Origin: Phycicoccus avicenniae
GTDB taxonomy: Bacteria > Actinomycetota > Actinomycetes > Actinomycetales > Dermatophilaceae
Length of the DNA stretch: 64,000 bases
Direction of reading: 5' to 3'
NCBI RefSeq assembly: GCF_018139485.1
Contig: NZ_JAGSNF010000001.1
Coordinates: 62,001 to 126,000, forward strand
Shown here: positions 8,893 to 64,000 of the stretch, piece after piece
How positions within the stretch are numbered: the first letter of the stretch is position 1
Layout of the letters: each line of letters begins with the position of its first letter
Notes under the pieces: model-generated
What the model saw: the letters and a program-made list of their open reading frames with translations, nothing else
Databases searched by the model: none
Told to the model about the DNA's origin: nothing
Translations under genes and position numbers: made by a program

Positions 8893-10005
8893 GTGAGCGA
8901 GCCCATCACCTATGCCGCCGCCGGGGTCGACGTCGAGGCCGGTGACAAGGCCGTCGAGCTGATGAAGGAGTCGGTCCGCCGGGCCACCCGCCCCGAGGTC
9001 CTCGGCGGGCTCGGCGGCTTCGCCGGGATGTTCGACGCGAGCGCCCTCGCCGCCTACCGTCGTCCGGTGCTCGCGACGTCCACCGACGGCGTCGGGACGA
9101 AGGTGGCGATCGCCCAGGCCCTCGACCGGCACGACACGATCGGGTTCGACCTCGTCGGCATGGTCGTCGACGACATCGTCGTCACCGGCGCCGAGGCGCT
9201 CTTCATGACCGACTACATCGCGTGCGGCAAGGTCGTCCCCGAGCGGATCGCCGCCGTCGTCTCCGGCATCGCCGCCGCGTGCGAGCAGGCCCGGGTCGCC
9301 CTCGTCGGCGGCGAGACCGCCGAGCACCCCGGCCTCCTCGACCCCGACGAGTACGACGTCGCCGGGGCAGCGACCGGGGTCGTCGAGCACGACGACGTCC
9401 TCGGCCCGCACCGGGTCCGCCCGGGCGACGTCGTCCTCGGCCTCGCCTCGAGCGGCCTGCACTCCAACGGCTACTCCCTCGTCCGCCGCGTCGTCGCGCA
9501 CGCGGGCTGGGCCCTCGACCGCCACGTCGACGAGTTCGGCCGCACCCTCGGTGAGGAGCTGCTCGAGCCGACCCGGGTCTACGCCGCCGACCTCCTCGAC
9601 CTCGTCCGGGCCGACGTCGTCGACGTCCACGCCCTCTCGCACGTCACCGGCGGCGGACTCGCCGCGAACCTCGCCCGGGTCCTGCCGCCGGAGGTCCACG
9701 CCCGGGTCGACCGCGGCTGCTGGACCCCGCCCGCCGTCTTCTCGACCGTCGCCGACCTCGGCTCCGTCCCGCGCGACGACCTCGAGCGCACGCTCAACAT
9801 GGGCGTCGGGTTCGCCGCGGTCGTCCCGGCCGACGCCGTCGACGCGGCGACCGCCCACCTCACCGGGCGCGGCATCGACACGTGGGTCATGGGGGAGGTG
9901 TTCGACGCCTCGACCGCCGACCTCGCGCTGGGCGAGGTCGTCCGCGGGGCCAAGGGTGTCGAGGGCGGCTCCGTCGAGCTCGTCGGGGACCACCCCGCCG
10001 CCTGA
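8893..10005 (+). CDS. purM: Phosphoribosylformylglycinamidine cyclo-ligase (AIR synthetase)
   Basis: 370-residue PurM, the ATP-dependent fifth step of purine synthesis (FGAM to AIR). The GTG start gives MSEPITYAAAGVDVEAGDKAVELMK. Family motifs include GGLGGFAGMFD, STDGVGTKVAIA, FDLVGMVVDDIVVTGAEALFM split across residues 77-97, LVGGETAEHPG, GLASSGLHSNGYSL and HVTGGGLAANLARVLP. Length is normal for the family. purF is usually its neighbour in actinobacteria but is not downstream here. The gene ends before two tandem hairpins. Confidence 0.97.
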   Translation: MSEPITYAAAGVDVEAGDKAVELMKESVRRATRPEVLGGLGGFAGMFDASALAAYRRPVLATSTDGVGTKVAIAQALDRHDTIGFDLVGMVVDDIVVTGAEALFMTDYIACGKVVPERIAAVVSGIAAACEQARVALVGGETAEHPGLLDPDEYDVAGAATGVVEHDDVLGPHRVRPGDVVLGLASSGLHSNGYSLVRRVVAHAGWALDRHVDEFGRTLGEELLEPTRVYAADLLDLVRADVVDVHALSHVTGGGLAANLARVLPPEVHARVDRGCWTPPAVFSTVADLGSVPRDDLERTLNMGVGFAAVVPADAVDAATAHLTGRGIDTWVMGEVFDASTADLALGEVVRGAKGVEGGSVELVGDHPAA

Positions 10006-10033
10006 CCGCGACGGGCACGCGGCCCGCTCCGGG

Positions 10034-10138
10034 TCGAGGTGCGAGCGCGCGCCGATCCGCGCGGCATCACCTCGAGCGGGGGAGAGCGGGGCCGGATCGA
10101 GGTGTGAACGCGCGCCGATCCGCGCGGCGTCACCTCGA
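10034..10138. terminator. Pair of near-identical 42-bp hairpin repeats after purM
   Basis: Hairpin A (10034-10075) and hairpin B (10097-10138) both begin TCGAGGTG and end CACCTCGA, with a CGCGCGCCGATCCGCGCGG core. The two copies differ at three of 42 positions. They sit between the convergent purM and the nuclease gene, where a bidirectional terminator would be expected. No T-tract follows, as is common in GC-rich actinobacteria. Confidence 0.8.
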
Positions 10139-10179
10139 CAGAGGACTCCGGGGAGTGCGGGGATGCGCGCGGCCGGGCG

Positions 10180-11355
10180 TCAGCCCCAGATCGCCTCGGC
10201 CCACTCCGGGTGGTCGACGAACGGGTTGCGGTTGCCCTGCCACGTCGCGTGGATGCGGTCGTTCCGGCGCATCTCGAACGCGTCGACGGGGTCCTGGGCG
10301 TTCCACGCGAGCAGCTCGGAGATCCGCCCCATCCGAGGGGCGCTGCCGTTGTCGACGAGGTCGTTCACCTCGAGGTCGGGCCGGCCGGCGTCGCCCTCCC
10401 AGCGGACCGCCATGTAGAGGACCATCCGGGCGACGTCGCCCTTGACGGCGTCCGGCGGCTCGAAGGAGTCGGCGTCGGTGAGGCAGCCGGAGCATCCCGC
10501 GACCGCGCCGCCGCCCTCGTCGAAGTCCTTGTTGCCCCGGGTCCCGTTCACCTGGACGTCGGTCGGCCGCAGGTGGTGCACGTCGGTGCCGGGTCCGGTG
10601 GCGGTGCCGAAGTCGCCGTGCGACTTCGCCCAGACGTGCTCGCGGTTCCAGTCACCGACGTCGCCCCCGTTGAGCGACTTCGACCGGGACTCGCCGGAGT
10701 AGAGCAGCCGGACGTTCGCGCTGTTCGCCGGGTCCTCGTCGGTGTCCTTCAGCGCGTCCCAGACCTGGGAGTAGGACAGGGCTTGCGCGTCGTCGACGAT
10801 GTCGTGGAGCTCGGCCTTGAGCGCCGCGCCGGTGAGGCCGACCGCCGACGCGTAGTACGTGTCGTCCCAGGGGCCGTCACCGGTGGGCGGAGGGTCGCCG
10901 GGGTCCCCTGGGTCGCCCGGGTCACCGCCGTCGGCCCGCGCGATCGCCGTCGGGCTCTTGAGCCCGGCGTGCGAGAAGTAGGCCTCGAGAGGCCCCGTGA
11001 CGTCGACCCGGTCGCCGAGCAGGTCGGGGTTCGACCGCAGCCCCCAGGCGTCCCGGAACCCCGATGTCAGCTGGACGTAGAGCATCCGGCCCGGGTCGGT
11101 CTCGGACGCGGAGTCGGCGAGCGCGAGGGCGTAGTCGTTCGGGAAGCCCGAGCGGACGACCGTCGTCGTCGCCGTGGGCTGGCCGACGACGTAGCCGCGG
11201 ACCGTCTGCGCCGACCCGTCCTGCTGCGCGGCACCCTGGGCGACCGTGAGGGGGCCGGCGGCCTGGGAGGACGGTGCGGCGAGTCCGATGGAGAGGAGGA
11301 GGGCGGCCGCGAGGATGAGCCACGCGGGTCGGCGGGTGCTGGTGTCGGTCGTCAC
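10180..11355 (-). CDS. Secreted nuclease: OB-fold-like N-domain plus endonuclease I domain
   Basis: 391 residues from the GTG at 11355. That start places a basic N-terminus and hydrophobic signal peptide (about residues 11-32, cleavage near SQA) at the front; upstream frame to 11514 does not look coding. Residues ~35-140 resemble the OB-fold/DUF6359 domain of Bacillus-type extracellular nucleases (VRGYVVGQ, LADSASETDPGRMLYVQL, WGLRSNPDLLGDRVDVTGPL, EAYF). A GDPGDPGDPPP linker follows. Residues ~165-391 form an endonuclease I (PF04231-type) domain with NREHVWAKSHGDF, the His-containing HHLRPTD and NKDFDEGG. Likely role is non-specific extracellular DNA/RNA degradation. Confidence 0.88.
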   Translation of the reverse strand: MTTDTSTRRPAWLILAAALLLSIGLAAPSSQAAGPLTVAQGAAQQDGSAQTVRGYVVGQPTATTTVVRSGFPNDYALALADSASETDPGRMLYVQLTSGFRDAWGLRSNPDLLGDRVDVTGPLEAYFSHAGLKSPTAIARADGGDPGDPGDPGDPPPTGDGPWDDTYYASAVGLTGAALKAELHDIVDDAQALSYSQVWDALKDTDEDPANSANVRLLYSGESRSKSLNGGDVGDWNREHVWAKSHGDFGTATGPGTDVHHLRPTDVQVNGTRGNKDFDEGGGAVAGCSGCLTDADSFEPPDAVKGDVARMVLYMAVRWEGDAGRPDLEVNDLVDNGSAPRMGRISELLAWNAQDPVDAFEMRRNDRIHATWQGNRNPFVDHPEWAEAIWG

Positions 11356-11559
11356 GGTCGACGACCCTGCCGGACGGCGGGCCGTGGCGGGTGTCCCCCG
11401 GGTAAGCATCCGGTCAGGACTCCACCTCCGTCGGCCCAGGCGATGGTCAGGACATCCGTCCGAGGGCCCGAGACGCAGCCCGGCCGGGCCCCTGGGCCCA
11501 CCGCGGATGAGCACCGGGACTCATGTGCCGGGACCGGGGTGGCTGCGACGCTGGGCGGT

Positions 11560-11961
11560 ATGAGTGCAGCACCCCTGCCGGTGAGCGCGGGCGCGACGGC
11601 GCCGGTGCTACCGGTCGACACCGACCGCCTGCGTCACGTCGTCGCCCGCCGGTGGGCCGTCGCGGTGCTCAGCCTCGGGACGGCCGGTCTCGCGGCGTGG
11701 GCGGCAACCACGATGCTCGGCGCCTGGATCGTCCTCGCCGGGGTGCGCACGGTGACCGGATCGACCCTGGCCGAGGTCGACCCGACCGGTCTCGTGCCGT
11801 CTTTCCTCCCCGTGCTGCTCGCCGGGTGGTGCGTCGGGCTGGCTGCCACCGCCGCGATCTCCCGAGGCCGTGCCCTTCCCGCGGAGGTCGCCGGCGCGGG
11901 CGCGGGCGGGGTCGGCGTCCTCGCCGGCCTCCTCGTCCTCGTCGTCACCGGTGCGGCCTGA
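11560..11961 (+). CDS. Small membrane protein, unknown function
   Basis: 133 residues from the ATG at 11560, with three hydrophobic helices: about 31-60, 75-96 and 104-130. The N-terminal 25 residues are Ala/Pro-rich. No family is recognisable. The gene is isolated, divergent from the nuclease across about 200 bases in which I see no feature, and ends nine bases before the convergent isochorismatase-like gene. A longer upstream frame exists but lacks coding character. Confidence 0.65.
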   Translation: MSAAPLPVSAGATAPVLPVDTDRLRHVVARRWAVAVLSLGTAGLAAWAATTMLGAWIVLAGVRTVTGSTLAEVDPTGLVPSFLPVLLAGWCVGLAATAAISRGRALPAEVAGAGAGGVGVLAGLLVLVVTGAA

Positions 11962-11970
11962 GACCCGCCG

Positions 11971-12573
11971 TCAGACGACCGTGACCTGCGGCGCGTAGAG
12001 GGCCATCGCCTCGAGCGCCCGCTCGTGGTTCTCGACGCTCGATCCCGCGCACGCGTCGGCGACGACCTCGACGGTCATCCCGGCGTCGGCGAGCGGCAGC
12101 ACGGTCGACAGGACGCAGCAGTCCGTCGCGACGCCCGCGACCGTCACGCGGGCCCCAGCGGGCAGCACGTCCCGCAGGACCTGCCCCTTGCCGAAGGTCC
12201 CGGCGGTCACCGTCGTGCCGGCCGCACCGCGCAGCACCGGGACTACGGCGTAGAGCGGGTCCTCGTCGGGCACGAGCGCGAAGTCCCACTCCTCGTAGTA
12301 GGTCGACCACGAGCCGCCGATCGAGGGGTCGGCGACGAACCGGGTCGTGACGGTCCGGGCGGGCCCGAACCGCTCGGCGAGGGCGACGACGCGTGGCTCG
12401 ACGTCCGCCCACATCGGCGAGCCCCACGGCGAGGTCGTCGGGTCGGCGAAGACGACCTGCGGGTCGACGAGGACGAGACGGTCGGTGACCGCCGGGAGGG
12501 GGGTCGTCGGACGACGAGGGTCGTCGGACGGAGACGTCATCGGACGACGAGGGTCGTCGGACGGAGACGTCAT
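11971..12573 (-). CDS. Isochorismatase-like cysteine hydrolase
   Basis: Alpha/beta cysteine hydrolase (isochorismatase/nicotinamidase superfamily), 200 residues from the ATG at 12573 or 189 from the in-frame ATG at 12540. The catalytic Asp is in LVLVDPQVVF, the Lys in TFGKGQVL and the nucleophile Cys in GVATDCCVLSTVLPLADAG. The first ATG overlaps the permease stop (ATGA), so it is probably translated by coupling. An exact 33-bp duplication creates both starts and an 11-residue repeat, MTSPSDDPRRP. Given the coupled NCS1 permease, an amidase acting on a nucleobase-derived or related amide is plausible but unproven. Confidence 0.85.
   Translation of the reverse strand: MTSPSDDPRRPMTSPSDDPRRPTTPLPAVTDRLVLVDPQVVFADPTTSPWGSPMWADVEPRVVALAERFGPARTVTTRFVADPSIGGSWSTYYEEWDFALVPDEDPLYAVVPVLRGAAGTTVTAGTFGKGQVLRDVLPAGARVTVAGVATDCCVLSTVLPLADAGMTVEVVADACAGSSVENHERALEAMALYAPQVTVV
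12508..12573 (-). repeat. Exact 33-bp tandem duplication covering a start codon
   Basis: 12508-12540 and 12541-12573 are identical 33-base units. Read on the minus strand, each starts ATGACGTCTCCGTCCGACGA and encodes MTSPSDDPRRP. The unit length is divisible by three, so both ATGs are in frame with the hydrolase. The upstream copy overlaps the end of the permease gene by four bases. Confidence 0.95.
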
Positions 12574-53154: not shown

Positions 53155-55272
53155 ATGAGCAGACACGACCTTCGAACTACTCCTGTCCCACTCGGTCAGC
53201 CGGTCCCGCGGCGAGACCCGTCCTCTCGTGGTCGCCGTCCTCGGAGGCCCTCTTCGATCGTCGTGCTGATGATGGTGACGGCCCTGGTCGTCGCCATGTC
53301 GGGCGCCGTCGCCGGATCCCCGGCGGCGCAAGCAGCACGCGCCGGCTCGGTGTTGTACAGCCCGAACCTGGCGACGTACCCCAGCGGTACAGCTGGGTAC
53401 CCGCGGGCGATCAGGCTCGATCAGGACGGGTCGCCGAACGAGACGATGCTGGCGACCTTCGCTCGTGGCGCGCACAACGGGCCGACGACGATGCCCGTGT
53501 ATCGGAGCACCGACGGCGGTGGCAGCTGGGCGCAGATCTCCTCCATCTCCAGCAACACCCCCGGGTGGGACATCGAGGCGCCGACCCTGTTCGAGGTTCC
53601 GAGGTCCATCCCCGGCCTGGCAGCGGGCACGATCCTGGCGGCCGGGACCGCGTGGCAGGTCGGCGACTACACGGCCCAGAAGGTGGAGGTGTTCAAGAGC
53701 ACGAACGGCGGCTCCAGCTGGACGTTCCTGTCGAACTGCACCAGCACCTCGGGGCAGCCGAACGGGTGGGGTCACGGCATCTGGGAGCCGACCTTCCTCG
53801 TGGCCGACAACGACGCGCTGGCGTGTTTCATCTCCGACGAACGCCCTGCGAACACCCCGACCAACAACCAGCTCATCGGTCACTACACCTCGACCGACGG
53901 CGGAGTGACGTGGGGCAGCACGCTCACCCAGGACGTCGCCTTCCCAGCCGACAACCTGCTGCGCCCGGGCATGCAGACGTTCGCCGAGCTGCCGAACGGC
54001 GAGTTCGTCATGACCTACGAGATGTGCCGGGACGCGACTGATCCCGACGACGCGTGCGAGGTGTACCTCAAGCGGAGCGCCGACGGACTCAACTGGGGTC
54101 CGCTGGGCGACCGCGGGACACTCGTTCGGACGACCGACGACCGTGAGCTCTTGCACACGCCTTACGTGGCCTGGGTGCCGGGCGGCGGGCCGGACGGGAC
54201 GCTCATGGTCTCGGGACAGCGTGTCGTCTCCGGTCCAACCGGCAACAAGACCGTGCTCGCCGAGTCGGGTTCGGTCCTCTTCGTCAACAGGGCTCTGGGG
54301 AACGGGCCATGGACCGAGGCCGAGACCCCCGTCACGGTCGACCCGACAGGCGGCTACGCCGCAGGGGTGGCGTCGTGCCCCGGCTATTCCACACCGATGG
54401 TGCCTCGCCAGGACGGCACCAGCTACGTGTACTTCGCCGCCACCCTGCTGACCGGCAGCCAATGCGAGCTCCGGACCGGTATCGGCACTCTTCCGGGGCC
54501 GACCGGCGCGATCATCGGGGCCGGTGGCAAGTGCCTCGACGTGGACACGAACACAGCCGTCAACGGACGCCCGGCGCAGCTCTGGACCTGTGGCACGGCG
54601 ACCGGCCAGGACTGGTCCGTCGACGCCGATGGGACCGTGCGCGCCTTCGGTCGCTGCCTGGACGTCGACGCCAACGGCACGACGAACGGCACCAAGGTCC
54701 AGTTGTGGGAATGCAACGGTGCCGGCGCCCAGCAGTGGCGAGCCCAGTCCGATGGCACCCTGCTCAACCCGCAGTCCGGCAAGTGTCTCGATGTCCCCTC
54801 CGGCAACACCGCCGACGGGACCGACCTGCAGATCTACACGTGCAACGGGTCTCCCGCCCAGGCATGGGTGCTGCCCGGCTTCCCGACCGGCCGCATCACG
54901 GGACCAGACACCGCCCCGAAGTGCGTCGACGTCGACACGAACACGCCCACGAGCGGCAACCGTGTCGGTCTGTGGGACTGCTCCGGGGTGCCGGGGCAAC
55001 AGTGGACGATGCGGCCCGACGGCACGGTCCGTGCCTTCGGCAAGTGCCTGGACGTGCAGGGCAACGGTGTCGCCAATGCCACCCCGGTGCAGCTGTGGGA
55101 CTGCAACGGGGGTGGCGCCCAAGTGTGGGTACCCCAGGCCAACGGATCGCTTCGCAACCCCCAGTCCGGACGATGCCTGGACGCTCCCGCCGGGTCTGCC
55201 AGCAACGGGACGAAGCTCCAGATCTACGACTGCAACGGTCAGGCTCCCCAACGTTGGACGGTGCCGGTGTGA
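53155..55272 (+). CDS. Secreted sialidase-fold glycoside hydrolase with two ricin-type domains
   Basis: 705 residues. A basic, twin-Arg-like N-terminus and hydrophobic segment (about 34-57) end at AQA, residue 60, so it is exported. The catalytic part (about 65-440) is a beta-propeller with Asp-boxes STDGGGSW (118-125), STNGGSSW (182-189) and STDGGVTW (246-253). Candidate catalytic Glu are E211 in GIWEP and E289 in MTYEM, an arrangement recalling GH93 exo-arabinanases more than GH33 sialidases. Two ricin B/CBM13 trefoils follow (about 453-582 and 588-705), each with three QxW repeats. ATG at 53155 follows GGAACGGAGA. Confidence 0.88.
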   Translation: MSRHDLRTTPVPLGQPVPRRDPSSRGRRPRRPSSIVVLMMVTALVVAMSGAVAGSPAAQAARAGSVLYSPNLATYPSGTAGYPRAIRLDQDGSPNETMLATFARGAHNGPTTMPVYRSTDGGGSWAQISSISSNTPGWDIEAPTLFEVPRSIPGLAAGTILAAGTAWQVGDYTAQKVEVFKSTNGGSSWTFLSNCTSTSGQPNGWGHGIWEPTFLVADNDALACFISDERPANTPTNNQLIGHYTSTDGGVTWGSTLTQDVAFPADNLLRPGMQTFAELPNGEFVMTYEMCRDATDPDDACEVYLKRSADGLNWGPLGDRGTLVRTTDDRELLHTPYVAWVPGGGPDGTLMVSGQRVVSGPTGNKTVLAESGSVLFVNRALGNGPWTEAETPVTVDPTGGYAAGVASCPGYSTPMVPRQDGTSYVYFAATLLTGSQCELRTGIGTLPGPTGAIIGAGGKCLDVDTNTAVNGRPAQLWTCGTATGQDWSVDADGTVRAFGRCLDVDANGTTNGTKVQLWECNGAGAQQWRAQSDGTLLNPQSGKCLDVPSGNTADGTDLQIYTCNGSPAQAWVLPGFPTGRITGPDTAPKCVDVDTNTPTSGNRVGLWDCSGVPGQQWTMRPDGTVRAFGKCLDVQGNGVANATPVQLWDCNGGGAQVWVPQANGSLRNPQSGRCLDAPAGSASNGTKLQIYDCNGQAPQRWTVPV

Positions 55273-58466: not shown

Positions 58467-58520
58467 GGCGTCAACGTAGTCCACGAGCCGTGCCGGCCCG
58501 CACGGCCGAGCCGGCGCACC

Positions 58521-58534
58521 CACCCTTTGGGGTG
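58521..58534. promoter_or_regulatory. Palindrome CACCCTTTGGGGTG in the divergent region
   Basis: CACCC and GGGTG flank a TTTG centre, with additional flanking similarity (CCACCCTTTGGGGTGTGG). It lies midway between the response regulator and the first glycosyltransferase start. It is a plausible binding site for the LuxR-type regulator. Confidence 0.45.
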
Positions 58535-58572
58535 TGGCGGGCCCCGTCGGCGACACGTGAGGGTGGTCGAAT

Positions 58573-59661
58573 GTGCCTGCCAGTGACCAGGACGTGAGCA
58601 TCCGCGTCGCCTCCGTCCCGACCGACCACGTGTACGTGCGTCACCTCGACCCCCCCGACGGGCCCGCCACGGTGCACCGGCTCCCCGACCCGACGTCCGG
58701 CGGCAGCGCCGCGGGCGCCCCGTGGTGGCCGCCCCGGGTCCTCGAGCCCGACTGGCTGCTCGAGAACGCGGACCGGTTCGACGTCGTCCACGTCCACTTC
58801 GGCTACGACGCCAAGAGCCCCGAGGACCTCGTGCGCTGGACCGGGGTGCTGCGCGACCTCGGCACGCCCCTCGTCCTCACCGTGCACGACCTGCGCAACC
58901 CGCACCACGAGGACGCCGCCCTCCACGACGCGCAGCTCGAGGTGCTGCTCGAGGCCGCCGACGCGGTCCTCACCCTCACCGACGGGGCAGCCGCCGAGAT
59001 CCTGCGCCGGCACCGCCGGCCGGCGCGGGTCGTGCCGCACCCGCACGTCGTGCCGCTGGAGCGGGTGGCCCGCCCGCGGGAGCCGCACGACGGCTTCGTC
59101 GTCGGGGTCCACTGCAAGAGCCTGCGGGCGAGCATGGACCCCCTGCCCGTCGTCGAGACCCTCGCCGAGGTCGTCCCGACCATCCCCGGGGGCAGCCTGC
59201 GGGTCGACGTGCACACCGACGTGATGACCGGGACCTCGCCCCGCAGCGACGCCCGTCTCGTCGAGCGTCTCCTCGCCTTGTCCGCGGACCGCCGCATCGA
59301 CCTCGCCGTCCACGACTTCTTCACCGACGACGAGCTCTTCGACTACCTCGGCTCGCTCGACGTGTCCGTGCTGCCGTACCGGTTCGGGACGCACTCGGGC
59401 TGGCTCGAGGCGTGCCACGACCTCGGGACGACCGTCGTCGCGCCCGACTGCGGCCACTACGCCGACCAGCGACCGGTCCTGCTGCACCGCACGGGGGACC
59501 CCGGGGCTCTCGCCTCCGCCGTCCGTCGGGCCCACGCGGAGGGGCCGTTGCCGCGGGCCACCGTCGAGGGCCGCCGGGCCGAGCGGGTCGAGCTCGCGGC
59601 GACCCACGAGCAGGTCTACCGCGGGGTCCTCGCCCGGGGGGTGCTCGCGTGCACGTCGTAG
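58573..59661 (+). CDS. Glycosyltransferase, GT-B fold (GT4-like)
   Basis: 362 residues, GTG start at 58573. The N-terminal domain has FDVVHVHFGYDAKSPEDLVR and LVLTVHDLRNPHHED, typical of glycosyltransferase acceptor domains; the C-terminal domain has VGVHCKSLRASMDPLPVVET and DLAVHDFFTDDELFDYLGSL, then SVLPYRFGTHSGWLEACHDLG, split to stay short. That last stretch matches the donor-binding E-x7-E region only loosely. First gene of a six-gene run with overlapping ends. Donor and acceptor sugars unknown. Confidence 0.85.
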   Translation: MPASDQDVSIRVASVPTDHVYVRHLDPPDGPATVHRLPDPTSGGSAAGAPWWPPRVLEPDWLLENADRFDVVHVHFGYDAKSPEDLVRWTGVLRDLGTPLVLTVHDLRNPHHEDAALHDAQLEVLLEAADAVLTLTDGAAAEILRRHRRPARVVPHPHVVPLERVARPREPHDGFVVGVHCKSLRASMDPLPVVETLAEVVPTIPGGSLRVDVHTDVMTGTSPRSDARLVERLLALSADRRIDLAVHDFFTDDELFDYLGSLDVSVLPYRFGTHSGWLEACHDLGTTVVAPDCGHYADQRPVLLHRTGDPGALASAVRRAHAEGPLPRATVEGRRAERVELAATHEQVYRGVLARGVLACTS

Positions 59662-60728
59662 TCCTCGCGGCGGCCGCCCACCCGGTCGTCGAGCCGTTCG
59701 CCGGCGGGCTGGAGTCGCTCACCTGGCACCTCGTCAGCGGGCTGCGTCGGCGGGGTGTCGACGTCACCGTCTTCGCGGGGGCGGGCAGCGACCCCGACCT
59801 GCGGGCCCATGTCCTGCGCACCCGGCCGCTGCGGCTCAGCGACGCGGCCCGCTCCGACGTGAGCATGGTGCCCGAGCCGTGGCTGCGCGAGCACCACGCC
59901 TACCTCCAGGTCATGCTCCAGCTGCAGCGGCGCGACGACGTCGACGTCGTCCACAACAACAGCCTCCACCACCTGCCCGTCGCGATGGCGGCGTCGGTCC
60001 CCGCGTCCACCCTCACGACGCTGCACACCCCGCCCACCCCGTGGCTCGAGCCGGCCATCGGGATCGCGGCCGCCGACCCGGCCCACTGCTCGCGGCTCGT
60101 CGGGGTGAGCGAGCACACCGCCGCCGCCTGGCGACACGTCGGGACCGTCGACGTCGTGCGCAACGGCGTCGACGTCGACCGCTGGCGTCCGGGCCCCGGC
60201 GGGACCGACCTGGCGTGGGCGGGACGCATCGTGCCCGAGAAGGCGCCGCACCTCGCGGTCGCCATGGCCCGCGCGGCCGGCCGGCGGCTGCGGCTCGCCG
60301 GGCCCGTCGGCGACCGGGACTACATGGAGCGCTGCGTGGTACCCCTGCTCGGCGACGGGGTCGAGCACGTCGGGCACCTCGACACGACGGGCCTCGCCCG
60401 CCTCTTCGGGGAGAGCGCCGTCACCCTCGTCACCCCGGACTGGGACGAGCCGTACGGGCTCGTCGCGGCGGAGTCGCTCGCGTGCGGCACCCCCGTCGTC
60501 GCCCTCGACCGCGGAGGGCTGTCCGAGGTCGTCGACGAGGCCACCGGCGTCCTCGTCGACCCCGCGTCGCCCGACCTCGCGGCGGCCGGCGCGGACGCGG
60601 TGCTCCTCGCCGAGCGCCTCGAGCGGCGTGCGTGCCGGCAGCGCGCCGAGCGGGAGTGCTCCGTCGACCGGATGGTCGGCGAGTACCTCGCGCGGTACGA
60701 AGGGCTGTCAGCCGGGCGGGTCGCATGA
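59649..60728 (+). CDS. Glycosyltransferase, GT4-like
   Basis: 359 residues from the GTG at 59649, 13 bases inside the previous gene. It has the classic GT4 layout: the Gly-rich N-terminal loop HPVVEPFAGGLESLTWHLVS, STLTTLHTPPTPWLEP, RNGVDVDRWRPGPGG, LAWAGRIVPEKAPHLAVAMA, and the donor motif TPDWDEPYGLVAAESLACGT with E-x7-E, followed by PVVALDRGGLSEVVD. Nucleotide-sugar dependent retaining transferase. Coupled by ATGA to the next gene. Confidence 0.93.
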   Translation: MHVVVLAAAAHPVVEPFAGGLESLTWHLVSGLRRRGVDVTVFAGAGSDPDLRAHVLRTRPLRLSDAARSDVSMVPEPWLREHHAYLQVMLQLQRRDDVDVVHNNSLHHLPVAMAASVPASTLTTLHTPPTPWLEPAIGIAAADPAHCSRLVGVSEHTAAAWRHVGTVDVVRNGVDVDRWRPGPGGTDLAWAGRIVPEKAPHLAVAMARAAGRRLRLAGPVGDRDYMERCVVPLLGDGVEHVGHLDTTGLARLFGESAVTLVTPDWDEPYGLVAAESLACGTPVVALDRGGLSEVVDEATGVLVDPASPDLAAAGADAVLLAERLERRACRQRAERECSVDRMVGEYLARYEGLSAGRVA

Positions 60729-61738
60729 TCGCCTGGTACGTCCACCACGTCGGGCGGGGGCACGCCGCCCGGGCGGCCGCGGTCGCCCGTCACCTGCGGC
60801 ACGACGTCGTCGGGCTCGGCTCCGGCCCGGCGCCGCGGCCGTGGCCCGGCGCGTGGGAGCCGCTCGAGCGCGACGACCTGGGAGCGGCGCCCGCCGACGT
60901 CACCGCCCGCGGCACCCTGCACTGGGTGCCGCGCCACGACCGGGGACTGGCGGACCGCTCCGCCCGGATCGTCGAGCGCCTGACGACCCTGCGGCCCGCG
61001 CTCGTCGTCGTCGACGTGTCCGTCGAGGTCGCGCTCCTCGCCCGGCTCTGCGGCATCCCCGTCGTCGTCGTCGCCCTGCCGGGCGACCGGGACGACCGGG
61101 TCCACGGGCTCGCCTACGAGGCGGCCGAGGCGCTGCTCGCCCCCTGGCCACCCGGGACGCACGACGTGTCCTGGCCCGACCGGCTGCGCGAGCGGACCTG
61201 GGCCGTGGGGGCCTTCGGCCGGCTCGACGGGATGCCGGTCCGCCCGACCTCGCGCGGCCCGGTCGGGCGCGTCCTCCTGCTGTGGGGCGGCGGCGGACGG
61301 AGCACGACGGACGCCGACGTCGCCGCCGCGCGGGCGGCCACGCCCGGCTGGGAGTGGACCGAGTGCTCCGGCGACGACCCCGCGGACGTCGTGCACGACC
61401 GGCTCGCGGCGGCCGACGTCGTCGTCACCCACGGAGGGCAGAACGCGGTCGCGGAGGTCGCCGCAGCGCGCCGCCCGGCGGTCGTCGTGGCCCAGGAGCG
61501 TCCCTTCGACGAGCAGCGCGCCACCGCGCGCGTCGTCGACCGGATGGGTATCGCGGTCGGCCTGGAGGCCTGGCCGGACGCCGCGGAGTGGCCGGACGTC
61601 CTGCGCCGGGCCGAGGCCCGTGGCGGTGAGGGCTGGGCGGCGTGGAGCAGCGGCACCGGTGCGCTCGAGGCGGCCACGCGGCTCGACGCCCTCGCGGAGG
61701 AGCGGTCCCCGGTCCGGGTCCCGGAGGCGGCCCGATGA
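60725..61738 (+). CDS. Glycosyltransferase, GT-B fold (MurG/GT1/GT28-like)
   Basis: 337 residues. The start MIAWYVHHVGRGHAARAAAV resembles the Gly-rich acceptor loop of MurG/UDP-glycosyltransferase proteins. The C-terminal half carries VLLLWGGGGRST and the donor-loop stretch ADVVVTHGGQNAVAEVAAAR, RRPAVVVAQERPFDEQRATA, typical of GT1/GT28. An inverting nucleotide-sugar transferase is likely. ATGA overlap at both ends. Confidence 0.88.
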   Translation: MIAWYVHHVGRGHAARAAAVARHLRHDVVGLGSGPAPRPWPGAWEPLERDDLGAAPADVTARGTLHWVPRHDRGLADRSARIVERLTTLRPALVVVDVSVEVALLARLCGIPVVVVALPGDRDDRVHGLAYEAAEALLAPWPPGTHDVSWPDRLRERTWAVGAFGRLDGMPVRPTSRGPVGRVLLLWGGGGRSTTDADVAAARAATPGWEWTECSGDDPADVVHDRLAAADVVVTHGGQNAVAEVAAARRPAVVVAQERPFDEQRATARVVDRMGIAVGLEAWPDAAEWPDVLRRAEARGGEGWAAWSSGTGALEAATRLDALAEERSPVRVPEAAR

Positions 61739-62622
61739 TGCCGCGGGTCGCCGTCGTCACCGTGGTCCACGGGCGGCATCGTCACCTGCGCGGCCAGCGC
61801 TGGGGGCTCGCCCGGCAGTCCCGGCCGGCCGACACCCACGTCGTCGTCGCGATGGGCGACCCCGACGTCGCGGCCGTGCTCGACGACACGCCGGGACCGC
61901 CGGCCGTCGTCGTCGACGTCCCCGTGGAGGACGACCGGCTCCCGCTCGCGGCGGCCCGTAACGCCGGGGTCGAGGCGGCCCGCAGGTCCGCCGCGGACGT
62001 CGTCGTCCTCCTGGACGTCGACTGCGTGCCCGCGGCGGACCTCGTGGAGCGCTACGTCGCCGCGCTCGCCCCCGACGTCGTCCGGGGCCGCCGCCCCGCC
62101 GTGGCCTGCGGGACGGTGCGCTACCTCGACGAGGAGACGACCGCCCGGCCCCGGGACGACTGGGACGAGGACCTGCTGCTGCGCGGCTCCCGGCCGCACC
62201 CGGCCCGGCCGTCCCCTCCCGAGGGGGCGGCCGTCGCCGGGCGCGACGCGCGGCTCTTCTGGTCCCTGTCCTTCGCGACGACCGTCGAGGACTGGTCGGC
62301 CGTCGGCGGCTTCGACGAGGGCTACCTGGGGTACGGAGGGGAGGACACCGACTTCGGTCAGCGGGTCATCGCCGCCGACGGGCACCTCTTCTGGCTCGGC
62401 GGCGGCACCGCGTTCCACCAGCACCACGGCGGGGGCGGCCTCCCGGTCGAGCACGTCGACGACATCGTGACCAACGGAGCCCGGTTCGCCGGGAGATGGG
62501 GATGGTGGCCCATGCAGGGCTGGCTGGACGCGTTCGAGGACCTGGGCCTCGTCGAGTCGGACGGGCGGGGCGGGTACGCCGTCACCGGCCGGCGCTCGCC
62601 GCGGGAGAGGAGCGGGCGGTGA
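61735..62622 (+). CDS. Glycosyltransferase family 2-like (GT-A)
   Basis: 295 residues. PRVAVVTVVHGRHRHLRGQR begins a GT-A fold, with LPLAAARNAGVEAAR and the DxD metal/nucleotide motif in VVLLDVDCVPAADLVERY. The C-terminal block AVGGFDEGYLGYGGEDTDFG matches the galactosyltransferase C-terminal (GT7C-like) signature. Two adjacent ATGs at 61735 and 61738; the first overlaps the upstream stop. Coupled by GTGA to the flavoprotein gene. Confidence 0.92.
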   Translation: MMPRVAVVTVVHGRHRHLRGQRWGLARQSRPADTHVVVAMGDPDVAAVLDDTPGPPAVVVDVPVEDDRLPLAAARNAGVEAARRSAADVVVLLDVDCVPAADLVERYVAALAPDVVRGRRPAVACGTVRYLDEETTARPRDDWDEDLLLRGSRPHPARPSPPEGAAVAGRDARLFWSLSFATTVEDWSAVGGFDEGYLGYGGEDTDFGQRVIAADGHLFWLGGGTAFHQHHGGGGLPVEHVDDIVTNGARFAGRWGWWPMQGWLDAFEDLGLVESDGRGGYAVTGRRSPRERSGR

Positions 62623-63689
62623 ACGGCGCGTGGCGGGCGGCGGAGTGGGCCGACCCGTCGGTCGAGGCCGTGCCGTCCGGGGTCGGGCAGGCGCTGGACC
62701 TCGCACGCTCGCTCGAGCCCGCGGCCCGCGCGTTCCGGAAGGAGCCGTGGACGATGCTCTCCGTGCTCGCGACGCTCGGCGCCGGGGACCTCGGGGTCGC
62801 GCGGACCGCGGAGCCGCACCTCGACGCGGTCGCCATCCGGGCCCAGGCGGGGGACCCCGACCTCACGGCCGTCGGCGTCGACGACCGCTCCACCTTCGGT
62901 GTGTACGCCGCCCGGGCCCCCGGTGCCGGCCTCGCGTCGGTCTCCGACGAAGCCGGCGGGTGGACCGTGACCGGGCGCAAGGCCTGGTGCTCGCTCGCCC
63001 CCTGTGTGTCGCACGCTCTCGTCACGGTCGACGACGGGGAGCGCCCGGGGCTGTACGCCGTGGCCCTGCGCGACCCGGGCGTCGAGGTCGAGGACGGCCG
63101 GTGGGTCTCGCGCGGGCTCGCCGACGTCACGACGGGACCGGTGGCGTTCGACGCCGTGCCGGCCGTGCCCGTCGGCGAGCCCGGCTGGTACCTCGAGCGA
63201 CCGGGGTTCGCCTGGGGCGGCATCGGTGTCGCCGCCGTGTGGTTCGGCGGGGCGGCGGCCGTCGCGGGACGCCTGCTCGACGCGGCCGACCGCCGGACCC
63301 CGGACCAGGTGGCGCTCGCCCACCTCGGGACCGCCGACCGGCTGCTCCACGTCGCCCTGCTGGCGCTGCGCGGGGCGGCCGACGACATCGCCTCGGGCGC
63401 CGCGGACGGGGCCGCGGGTGCCCTGCTCGCCGGCCGGGTGCGGGCCGTCGTCGCCGACGCCGCCGAGGAGGTGCTGCGGGTCGTCGGGCACGGGCTCGGC
63501 CCCGGGCCGCTCACCGGCGACGAGGAGCACGCCCGACGGGTCGCCGACCTCACCGTCTACCTCCGCCAGCACCACGCGGAGCGTGACCTGGCCCGCCTCG
63601 GGTCGCTCGTCCTCGAGCACCGGACGTCCGCCGAGCCCTCCCCGTCGTCCGAGCGTCCTGCGTTTGCCGGGCGCCGCGGGCCGTCGTGA
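62619..63689 (+). CDS. Acyl-CoA dehydrogenase-like flavoprotein
   Basis: 356 residues from the GTG at 62619. The middle shows acyl-CoA dehydrogenase features: GGWTVTGRKAWCSLAPCVSH (FAD-binding beta domain) and GPVAFDAVPAVPVG, with an all-helical C-terminal domain (VVADAAEEVLRVVGHGLGPG). It is shorter than the usual ~380-400 and the normal N-terminal substrate helix region is divergent. The canonical Glu base is not recognisable, so the reaction may not be acyl-CoA oxidation. Its position inside a glycosyltransferase cluster is unusual. Confidence 0.82.
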   Translation: MNGAWRAAEWADPSVEAVPSGVGQALDLARSLEPAARAFRKEPWTMLSVLATLGAGDLGVARTAEPHLDAVAIRAQAGDPDLTAVGVDDRSTFGVYAARAPGAGLASVSDEAGGWTVTGRKAWCSLAPCVSHALVTVDDGERPGLYAVALRDPGVEVEDGRWVSRGLADVTTGPVAFDAVPAVPVGEPGWYLERPGFAWGGIGVAAVWFGGAAAVAGRLLDAADRRTPDQVALAHLGTADRLLHVALLALRGAADDIASGAADGAAGALLAGRVRAVVADAAEEVLRVVGHGLGPGPLTGDEEHARRVADLTVYLRQHHAERDLARLGSLVLEHRTSAEPSPSSERPAFAGRRGPS

Positions 63690-64000
63690 GCGCGGCCGTG
63701 GCGCCCGCCGTCGCCTTCCGCCACGACGACGCGGGCACACCGGAACCGGACTGGCTCCTGGACCCGCGGTGGTCCGGCGTCGCCGCCGTGGACGTCGACG
63801 TCTTGCCGGCGCTCTTCGACGACGTCGTCGTCGCGTCGGCGCACCCCGACGACGAGACGCTCGCCGTCGGCGGTCTCGTCGCGCTGGCGCACCGCGCCGG
63901 TCTGGCGGTCCGGGTGCTCGTCGTGACGGACGGGGCGGCATCCCATCCGGACGCCTCCACCTGGACGCCGGCCGCCCTCTCCGCGGTCCGCAGGGCCGAG
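63686..64000 (+). CDS. PIG-L family deacetylase, 5' part (cut by window end)
   Basis: The first 105 codons from the GTG at 63686, which overlaps the previous stop. VVVASAHPDDETLAVGGLVA (about residues 47-66) is the zinc-binding AHPDDE motif of LmbE/PIG-L deacetylases such as MshB, which remove acetyl from N-acetylglucosaminyl substrates. A ~45-residue N-terminal extension precedes it. With four glycosyltransferases upstream, deacetylation of an amino-sugar intermediate is the natural reading. The rest lies outside the window. Confidence 0.9.
   Translation, partial: MSAAVAPAVAFRHDDAGTPEPDWLLDPRWSGVAAVDVDVLPALFDDVVVASAHPDDETLAVGGLVALAHRAGLAVRVLVVTDGAASHPDASTWTPAALSAVRRAE

Follow-up and report, generated by a model that had tools for sequence, protein, structure and literature searches.

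A seven-gene run across the end of the window

What do bacteria make with a run of overlapping genes that joins several glycosyltransferases (GTs) to a flavoprotein of the acyl-CoA dehydrogenase (ACAD) fold and to a deacetylase of the PIG-L family? That question is raised by the last part of a 64,000-nucleotide stretch of Phycicoccus avicenniae DNA—hereafter the window, which covers positions 62001–126000 of contig NZ_JAGSNF010000001.1 in an assembly of 3.54 Mb, and past whose end we read the sequence on. The gene run is real and conserved, and its enzymes are of known kinds, while no description was found of their combination or of a product. Its telling feature is the coupling of PIG-L to a NodS-type methyltransferase (MT); and we consider it rather probable, judging from the sequences, that its product is a small glycoside with an amino sugar, formed through N-deacetylation followed by N-methylation. 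The run consists, moreover, of two separable modules and not of one fixed pathway: module A comprises the core genes GT4b, GTC, and GT2, to which some loci add GT4a; and module B comprises ACAD, PIG-L, MT, and GT2b.

The seven genes occupy 58573–65781 (window numbering), all on the plus strand, and thus extend beyond the window end at 64000, the first two overlapping by 13 bases and every later neighboring pair, five in all, by 4 bases. According to the Pfam annotation of nine proteins in and around the cluster, the run begins with the family-4 GTs GT4a (58573–59661, predicted start; Glyco_transf_4, 28.5 bits, at the cut-off) and GT4b (59649–60728; Glycos_transf_1, 63.8 bits), followed by the MurG/UGT-like GT-B enzyme GTC (60725–61738; Glyco_tran_28_C, 27.8 bits) and by GT2, a GT-A enzyme with a galactosyltransferase-type C domain (61735–62622; Glyco_transf_7C, 38.3 bits). 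Then come the ACAD-fold flavoprotein, a core member of module B (62619–63689), the 465-residue PIG-L/MT fusion (63686–65083), and GT2b, a second GT2 glycosyltransferase (65080–65781). The set therefore amounts to five GTs, the methyltransferase, the flavoprotein, and PIG-L, of which the MT and the fifth GT sit beyond 64000.

A preliminary description of this DNA had listed six overlapping genes, which the gene models bear out with a seventh added; three GT-B and one GT-A transferases, with which the Pfam domains of GT4a, GT4b, GTC, and GT2 agree; and a short, divergent ACAD-like protein, matched in fact by Acyl-CoA_dh_M at 25.4 bits, below the cut-off of 33.3. It had also proposed that a methyltransferase or further sugar genes be looked for beyond 64000, where the NodS-type MT and GT2b were indeed found. 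Its PIG-L stands as a domain, but the gene runs on past the window edge, the polypeptide continuing into the MT up to 65083. The third-position content of guanine plus cytosine was 0.92–0.98 for GT4a, GT2, ACAD, and PIG-L (longer starts being used for two of these). A codon log-odds caller recovered all seven cluster genes, which recovery is not independent because the caller had been trained on tblastn matches to these same reference genes.

In order to follow the genes through other bacteria we clustered 51 stretches, after the removal of eight near-duplicate Microbacterium-type loci (L084, L085, L087–L092). A called ACAD was present in 48 of them, the other three being L130, L134—of low GC, with zero genes called—and L140. 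On the same strand and within 5 kb of the ACAD, the MT was labelled in 45 of those 48 loci, GT2b in 37, and PIG-L in 34; 28 loci had all three. Among the 40 loci chosen by ACAD alone (the 43 picked with that gene minus L130, L134, and L140, and thus without the window and L079–L083, L086, and L093, which came from the PIG-L/MT query), the MT lay within that distance in 37, the exceptions being L062, L069, and L137. The gene-neighborhood search on which the preliminary description had staked its gene set, with scattering as the adverse outcome, consequently found the genes staying together.

The deacetylase and the methyltransferase

The PIG-L half of the fusion (residues 49–171) passes the Pfam cut-off with 79.3 versus 28.2 bits, and its metal-site residues—HPDDE at 53–57 and HPDH at 159–162—are 92–100% conserved among 39 sequences. 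The other half (residues 283–411) passes the cut-off of the Pfam NodS model with 54.5 versus 24 bits. Five further loci among the clustered stretches share this fusion of the two into one polypeptide. The closest solved relative of the MT, and its top profile match in the PDB, was 4isc (229 bits), an entry titled only "Methyltransferase," and the nearest named relative was NodS, with a profile score of 112 bits; the list obtained with the single sequence contained the gentamicin N-3'' methyltransferase and dTDP-3-amino-sugar N,N-dimethyltransferases, along with methyltransferases that do not act on sugars.

In seven loci (L074–L080) no PIG-L was found among the called genes with a hidden Markov model (HMM) built from the 39 PIG-L sequences. 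Directly before the ACAD of these loci stands a family of 187–215 residues, in which the polysaccharide-deacetylase domain PF01522 was recognized in all four members tested (80–93 bits), the class to which NodB belongs. In the synthesis of Nod factors, NodB and NodS perform a deacetylation and then an N-methylation. Since two unrelated families of sugar N-deacetylases thus occupy one slot beside a NodS-type MT, the N-deacetylation of a sugar would be the most likely chemistry on the basis of these sequences, with the methylation of the freed amine coming next; and the exchange of the deacetylase provides a chemical handle on the product. In six of the same seven loci a pyridine-nucleotide flavin-adenine-dinucleotide (FAD) oxidoreductase follows the MT (PF07992 in the three tested), L078 reaching the end of its contig; this oxidoreductase could supply electrons to the flavoprotein.

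Several observations weigh against so direct an assignment. The MT remains far under the cut-off of the NCBIfam NodS equivalog, with 58.2 of 300 bits, and the methyl group could land on an oxygen. Neither a called PIG-L, as judged by the HMM, nor a labelled polysaccharide deacetylase of the L074–L080 family was present in L069, L073, L136, L137, and L141; and among the 14 loci without a labelled PIG-L, a match at 32 bits was found elsewhere in L097 and in L131. The comparisons of GT2 and GT2b, furthermore, assign no sugar to either.

As to the glycosyltransferases themselves, a homolog of GT4a was found at the head of module A in L182, L164, L165, and L198; GT4b scored 298 bits with the corresponding gene of L142, which comes from the phylum to which a Pseudomonas genome belongs; GTC shared 31–46% identity with five homologs from two phyla; and homologs of GT2 occurred in L073, L136, L139, L140, L142, and L147. 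The comparisons of GT2b and GTC returned ordinary glycosyltransferases only.

Two of the loci without a called PIG-L have particular arrangements: L073 bears a DNA photolyase gene (11032–12393) between MT and GT2, within the cassette run; and L069 has a lone ACAD-like gene (9601–10902) beside a ferritin-like gene (PF00210, 10945–11445), neither PIG-L nor MT being labelled in the 5 kb around it.

Comparison with known pathways

The likeness to the modification of Nod factors by NodB and NodS lies in the coupling of a sugar N-deacetylase with a NodS-family MT, a likeness that in L074–L080 extends to the class of the deacetylase. The differences are that PIG-L replaces NodB in most of the present loci and is fused to the MT in this cluster, that a flavoprotein is added, and that the genes occur far outside the rhizobia. 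Neither a chitin synthase NodC nor a NodA-like acyltransferase was among the nine Pfam-annotated proteins, the rest of the genome not having been searched.

A second likeness is to the synthesis of mycothiol and bacillithiol, where a family-4 GT and a PIG-L deacetylase follow the same logic, whereas the cluster described here adds the MT, the flavoprotein, and further GTs. That the run encodes a variant of one of those two pathways appears very improbable to us: GT4b does match MshA, with 54.5 bits, and the PIG-L domain BshB2, with 33.1 bits, but the equivalog cut-offs are 462.5 and 195.25 bits, respectively, and the scores for MshB (16.9 of 224.35 bits), BshA (40.6 of 273.7), and BshB1 (32.3 of 182.5) also fell far below theirs. 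Both pathways were rejected on these scores, in keeping with the earlier statement that the known PIG-L pathways do not fit. With regard to the further statement that this gene set has no described product, we likewise found no description of either the set or a product in the titles and the beginnings of abstracts of the open-licence literature, which is a weak test because PIG-L (or LmbE) never occurs in the papers listed.

The ACAD-fold flavoprotein

The AlphaFold model of the window flavoprotein had a mean pLDDT of 91. When the model was compared with the PDB by Foldseek, the first five matches were, in order, 5gj7, two entries of KijD3, and two of DnmZ, after which came a steroid ACAD, TdsC, and ORF36. 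A PDB profile search with 38 sequences gave as its first nine matches DszC (three entries), 5z8t, 5gj7, KijD3 (two entries), TdsC, and methanesulfinate monooxygenase. In a global profile alignment with acyl-CoA dehydrogenases from the same genome, the catalytic Glu of the latter—the base at the YEGT position—aligned to His318 of the flavoprotein; and of 33 family sequences, that from the window included, a single one had Glu there. What the preliminary description had called an acyl-CoA-dehydrogenase-like flavoprotein thus keeps its fold but probably lacks the character of an ordinary dehydrogenase, in view of His318 at the catalytic position and of the score below the cut-off of the ACAD domain. 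On these sequence and model comparisons, the protein is probably an ACAD-fold oxidase or oxygenase and not an ordinary acyl-CoA dehydrogenase, a flavin monooxygenase, toward which the profile and Foldseek matches incline, being perhaps more likely than a dehydrogenase.

This assignment has its own adverse points. The test of the catalytic Glu depends on that one alignment; the title of entry 5gj7 names a putative acyl-CoA dehydrogenase; and in the profile list dehydrogenases appear from rank 10 onward, while the nitrososynthase ORF36 and DnmZ came only at ranks 25 and 29. C-terminal Pfam matches were to PF00441 in six of the 33 family members and to PF08028 in two; the Novosphingobium relative passes the PF00441 cut-off, and the Deinococcus relative matches PF00441 and also PF08028. 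Of four PDB searches with single sequences, two were topped by a nitrososynthase or TdsC, but those with the L139 and L093 proteins were topped by dehydrogenases.

The same matches bear on an alternative, which we regard as unlikely: that the flavoprotein is a true dehydrogenase, by which an acyl chain is desaturated or oxidized, and that a glycolipid results, with acylation of its amino sugar once PIG-L has exposed the amine. The PF00441 matches, among them that of the Novosphingobium protein, and the dehydrogenases heading the L139 and L093 lists speak in its favor, but the near absence of Glu at the aligned catalytic position (one of 33) does not, nor does the failure of the window protein to reach the cut-off of the sole ACAD domain that it matched. 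In addition, no acyltransferase, acyl carrier, or electron-transfer flavoprotein was present among the nine annotated proteins around the cluster, the other neighbors being unannotated.

The amino-sugar N-oxygenases KijD3, ORF36, and DnmZ figured among the best matches that Foldseek gave for the flavoprotein, KijD3 being high in the profile list too, and an amino sugar would be a fitting substrate in the pathway proposed here. Their identity with the flavoprotein, in contrast, was only 17–19% in the Foldseek alignments, and its chain has 356 residues as opposed to some 388–407; the sulfur monooxygenases, moreover, match it as well or better, with dehydrogenases close behind.

Two separable modules

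We followed the modules with GTC and ACAD as markers in 39 genomes (that of the window and those of 38 relatives), where GTC was found in 18 and ACAD in 23. Both occurred in 16 genomes, module A alone in two, module B alone in seven, and neither in 14 (Fisher P = 8e-4, uncorrected for kinship). In eight of the 16 genomes with both, the window's included, the markers lay on the same contig within 10 kb. Among 20 stretches from 15 relatives, A and B formed one run in L181–L184 and were adjacent, though differently ordered or oriented, in L193–L195, but were apart in L185/186, L187/188, L189/190, L196/197, and L198/199. The modules were together also in L073, L139, L142, and L147, with L142 having the full set on one strand and L139 the same set in two convergent runs. 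The plasmid pSA2 of Novosphingobium resinovorum has an annotated run of catalase, GT4, GT-A, GT, ACAD, PIG-L, MT, and GT, in which tblastn with the reference sets matched all seven cassette genes.

Since A and B are often apart, the two need not share a product, which weighs against a common pathway; and a second alternative would have them make two different products, with their proximity arising only through the shared shuffling and transfer of regions. We hold this to be possible, though rather doubtful. In the other eight of the 16 genomes the markers were separated by over 10 kb or lay on different contigs; module A is present without any gene of B in two stretches of Rhodococcus plasmids; and GTC was labelled in five of the 51 stretches. 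Against such independence stand the co-occurrence of the markers across the 39 genomes, with the reservation on kinship already given, and the presence of both modules in one run in L142 and L147.

As a separate observation, a CinA-family gene and an NAD synthetase gene were seen near the cassette in Sulfitobacter (L148, 6339–8902) and near module A in Rhodococcus (L164, 3268–6165).

Distribution among bacteria

The protein search of named genomes yielded 13 loci in Phycicoccus, Kocuria, Microbacterium and its family, and one Pseudomonas. Of 296 genomes of the window's phylum, 19 matched the ACAD query and 32 the PIG-L/MT query at the cut-offs applied, the source genome included in each; and of 299 genomes of the phylum of the Pseudomonas locus, 22, again with its own, matched the Pseudomonas ACAD. 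With the L139 ACAD as a tblastn query, 79 of 72,556 plasmid records matched, including those from Deinococcus, Sulfitobacter, Methylobacterium, Bradyrhizobium, Komagataeibacter, Acinetobacter, and Nostoc. The gene order was inspected in ten of the 79, and in five of eight records from another plasmid search. PIG-L and MT follow the ACAD in nine of the ten, that of D. radiodurans having an extra gene between the two, while in Methylobacterium FF17 the ACAD is not accompanied by the other cassette genes. In four of the further five, PIG-L and MT come directly after the ACAD; in Cupriavidus the MT does so, with PIG-L 3 kb upstream on the opposite strand. The cassette is thus present in Actinomycetota, Pseudomonadota, Deinococcota, and on a Nostoc plasmid, in some instances on plasmids typed as conjugative or mobilizable, and this recurrence across phyla implies a widely used metabolite.

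Proposed pathway

From what was observed—the gene order, the domains, the fusion, the recurrence of the modules, the exchange for a NodB-class deacetylase, and the loss of the catalytic Glu in the alignment—we infer a pathway, its substrate and the sequence of its reactions being deduced just as each reaction is. The GTs of module A (the family-4 enzyme, the MurG-like enzyme, GT2, and at times a second family-4 enzyme) would build or extend a glycan or glycoside. GT2b of module B would add, or work beside, an N-acetylated amino sugar, from which the PIG-L half would take off the N-acetyl group; the NodS-like half would then methylate the freed amine, as NodB and NodS do in succession in the synthesis of Nod factors. 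The ACAD-fold flavoprotein might oxidize the sugar before or after those reactions, more likely as a flavin monooxygenase. Of the amino-sugar glycoside or glycolipid, made by one pathway, that the preliminary description had put forward, the amino-sugar glycoside thus remains the best reading, whereas the single pathway gives way to two modules; the glycolipid stays no more than a possibility.

Stress-related neighbors

In the 41 genomes with ACAD matches, which come from both phyla, the large-catalase domain PF18011 had 35 matches (five of these in frames of about 200 residues, too short for a large catalase), of which six, in six genomes, lay within 25 kb of the ACAD. Under uniform placement 0.37 copies would be expected (P = 3e-6). 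DUF892, for its part, had 30 matches in the same genomes, of which five, spread over three genomes, fell within the same distance, where 0.32 copies were expected (P = 0.004 for three). These P values assume independence and use rounded genome sizes. The window's own genome had neither a PF18011 nor a DUF892 match. Among 15 hand-picked plasmid records inspected for module B, a catalase was near the cassette in Cupriavidus, Novosphingobium, Sulfitobacter, and Acinetobacter; trehalose genes were near it in two Comamonas and in Acinetobacter; and Ku/LigD genes in Bradyrhizobium; in the rest of the 15 (one of them unannotated) no catalase, trehalose, or Ku/LigD genes were found near the cassette.

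What these neighbors indicate is a correlation in position and not a function. On account of the large catalase, DUF892, and trehalose genes we would guess that the product is a stress protectant; and if it does protect from oxidants or drying, it would be a new component of bacterial stress survival beside catalase and trehalose. A more specific version, which we deem quite improbable, is that module B makes an N-oxidized amino-sugar glycoside, the sugar being deacetylated and N-methylated and the same nitrogen then oxygenated by the ACAD-fold enzyme to give a hydroxylamine, nitrone, or nitroso sugar. If that were true, the product would be a redox-active protectant and a new class of bacterial stress metabolite in several phyla, which property would explain why the cassette lies near large catalases, DUF892, and trehalose genes in unrelated bacteria.

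Upstream regulator and flanking genes

Upstream of the cluster, and transcribed divergently from it, lies a gene for a NarL-type response regulator (57807 to about 58484, minus strand), in which the GerE domain scored 49.9 bits and the receiver domain 21.7 bits, below its cut-off. Searches with phmmer over the called genes of the 20 stretches from 15 related genomes and of the two Rhodococcus stretches returned no relative, and over those of 58 other stretches none but a 28-bit match in L141. Because no relative was found in the related stretches, we rejected this LuxR gene as the conserved regulator of the cluster, of which, on these comparisons, it is probably not a part; the orphan LuxR regulator described at first is thus a NarL-type response regulator. 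No EcfG-type (general-stress) promoter (GGAAC-N15..17-CGTT) was found before the cassette genes in 20 stretches from the G296 phylum, taken irrespective of class, in a scan without a shuffle control.

A Zn-alcohol dehydrogenase gene (65857–67059) begins 75 bases after GT2b and is followed, within 65857–68672, by a phytoene-desaturase-like gene that we recognized by eye. Homologs of this alcohol dehydrogenase occur also 3' of module B in the Microbacterium loci, and on a Rhodococcus plasmid a weaker homolog (38%) was found downstream of module A. Farther downstream of the cluster, at 77070–86452, cyclopropane-synthase-like, MerR-type, FAD-oxidoreductase, and photolyase-like genes were discerned by eye; and within the window, at 54001–55272, the translation contains the final part of a protein whose repeated segments, likewise judged by eye, are carbohydrate-binding in appearance.

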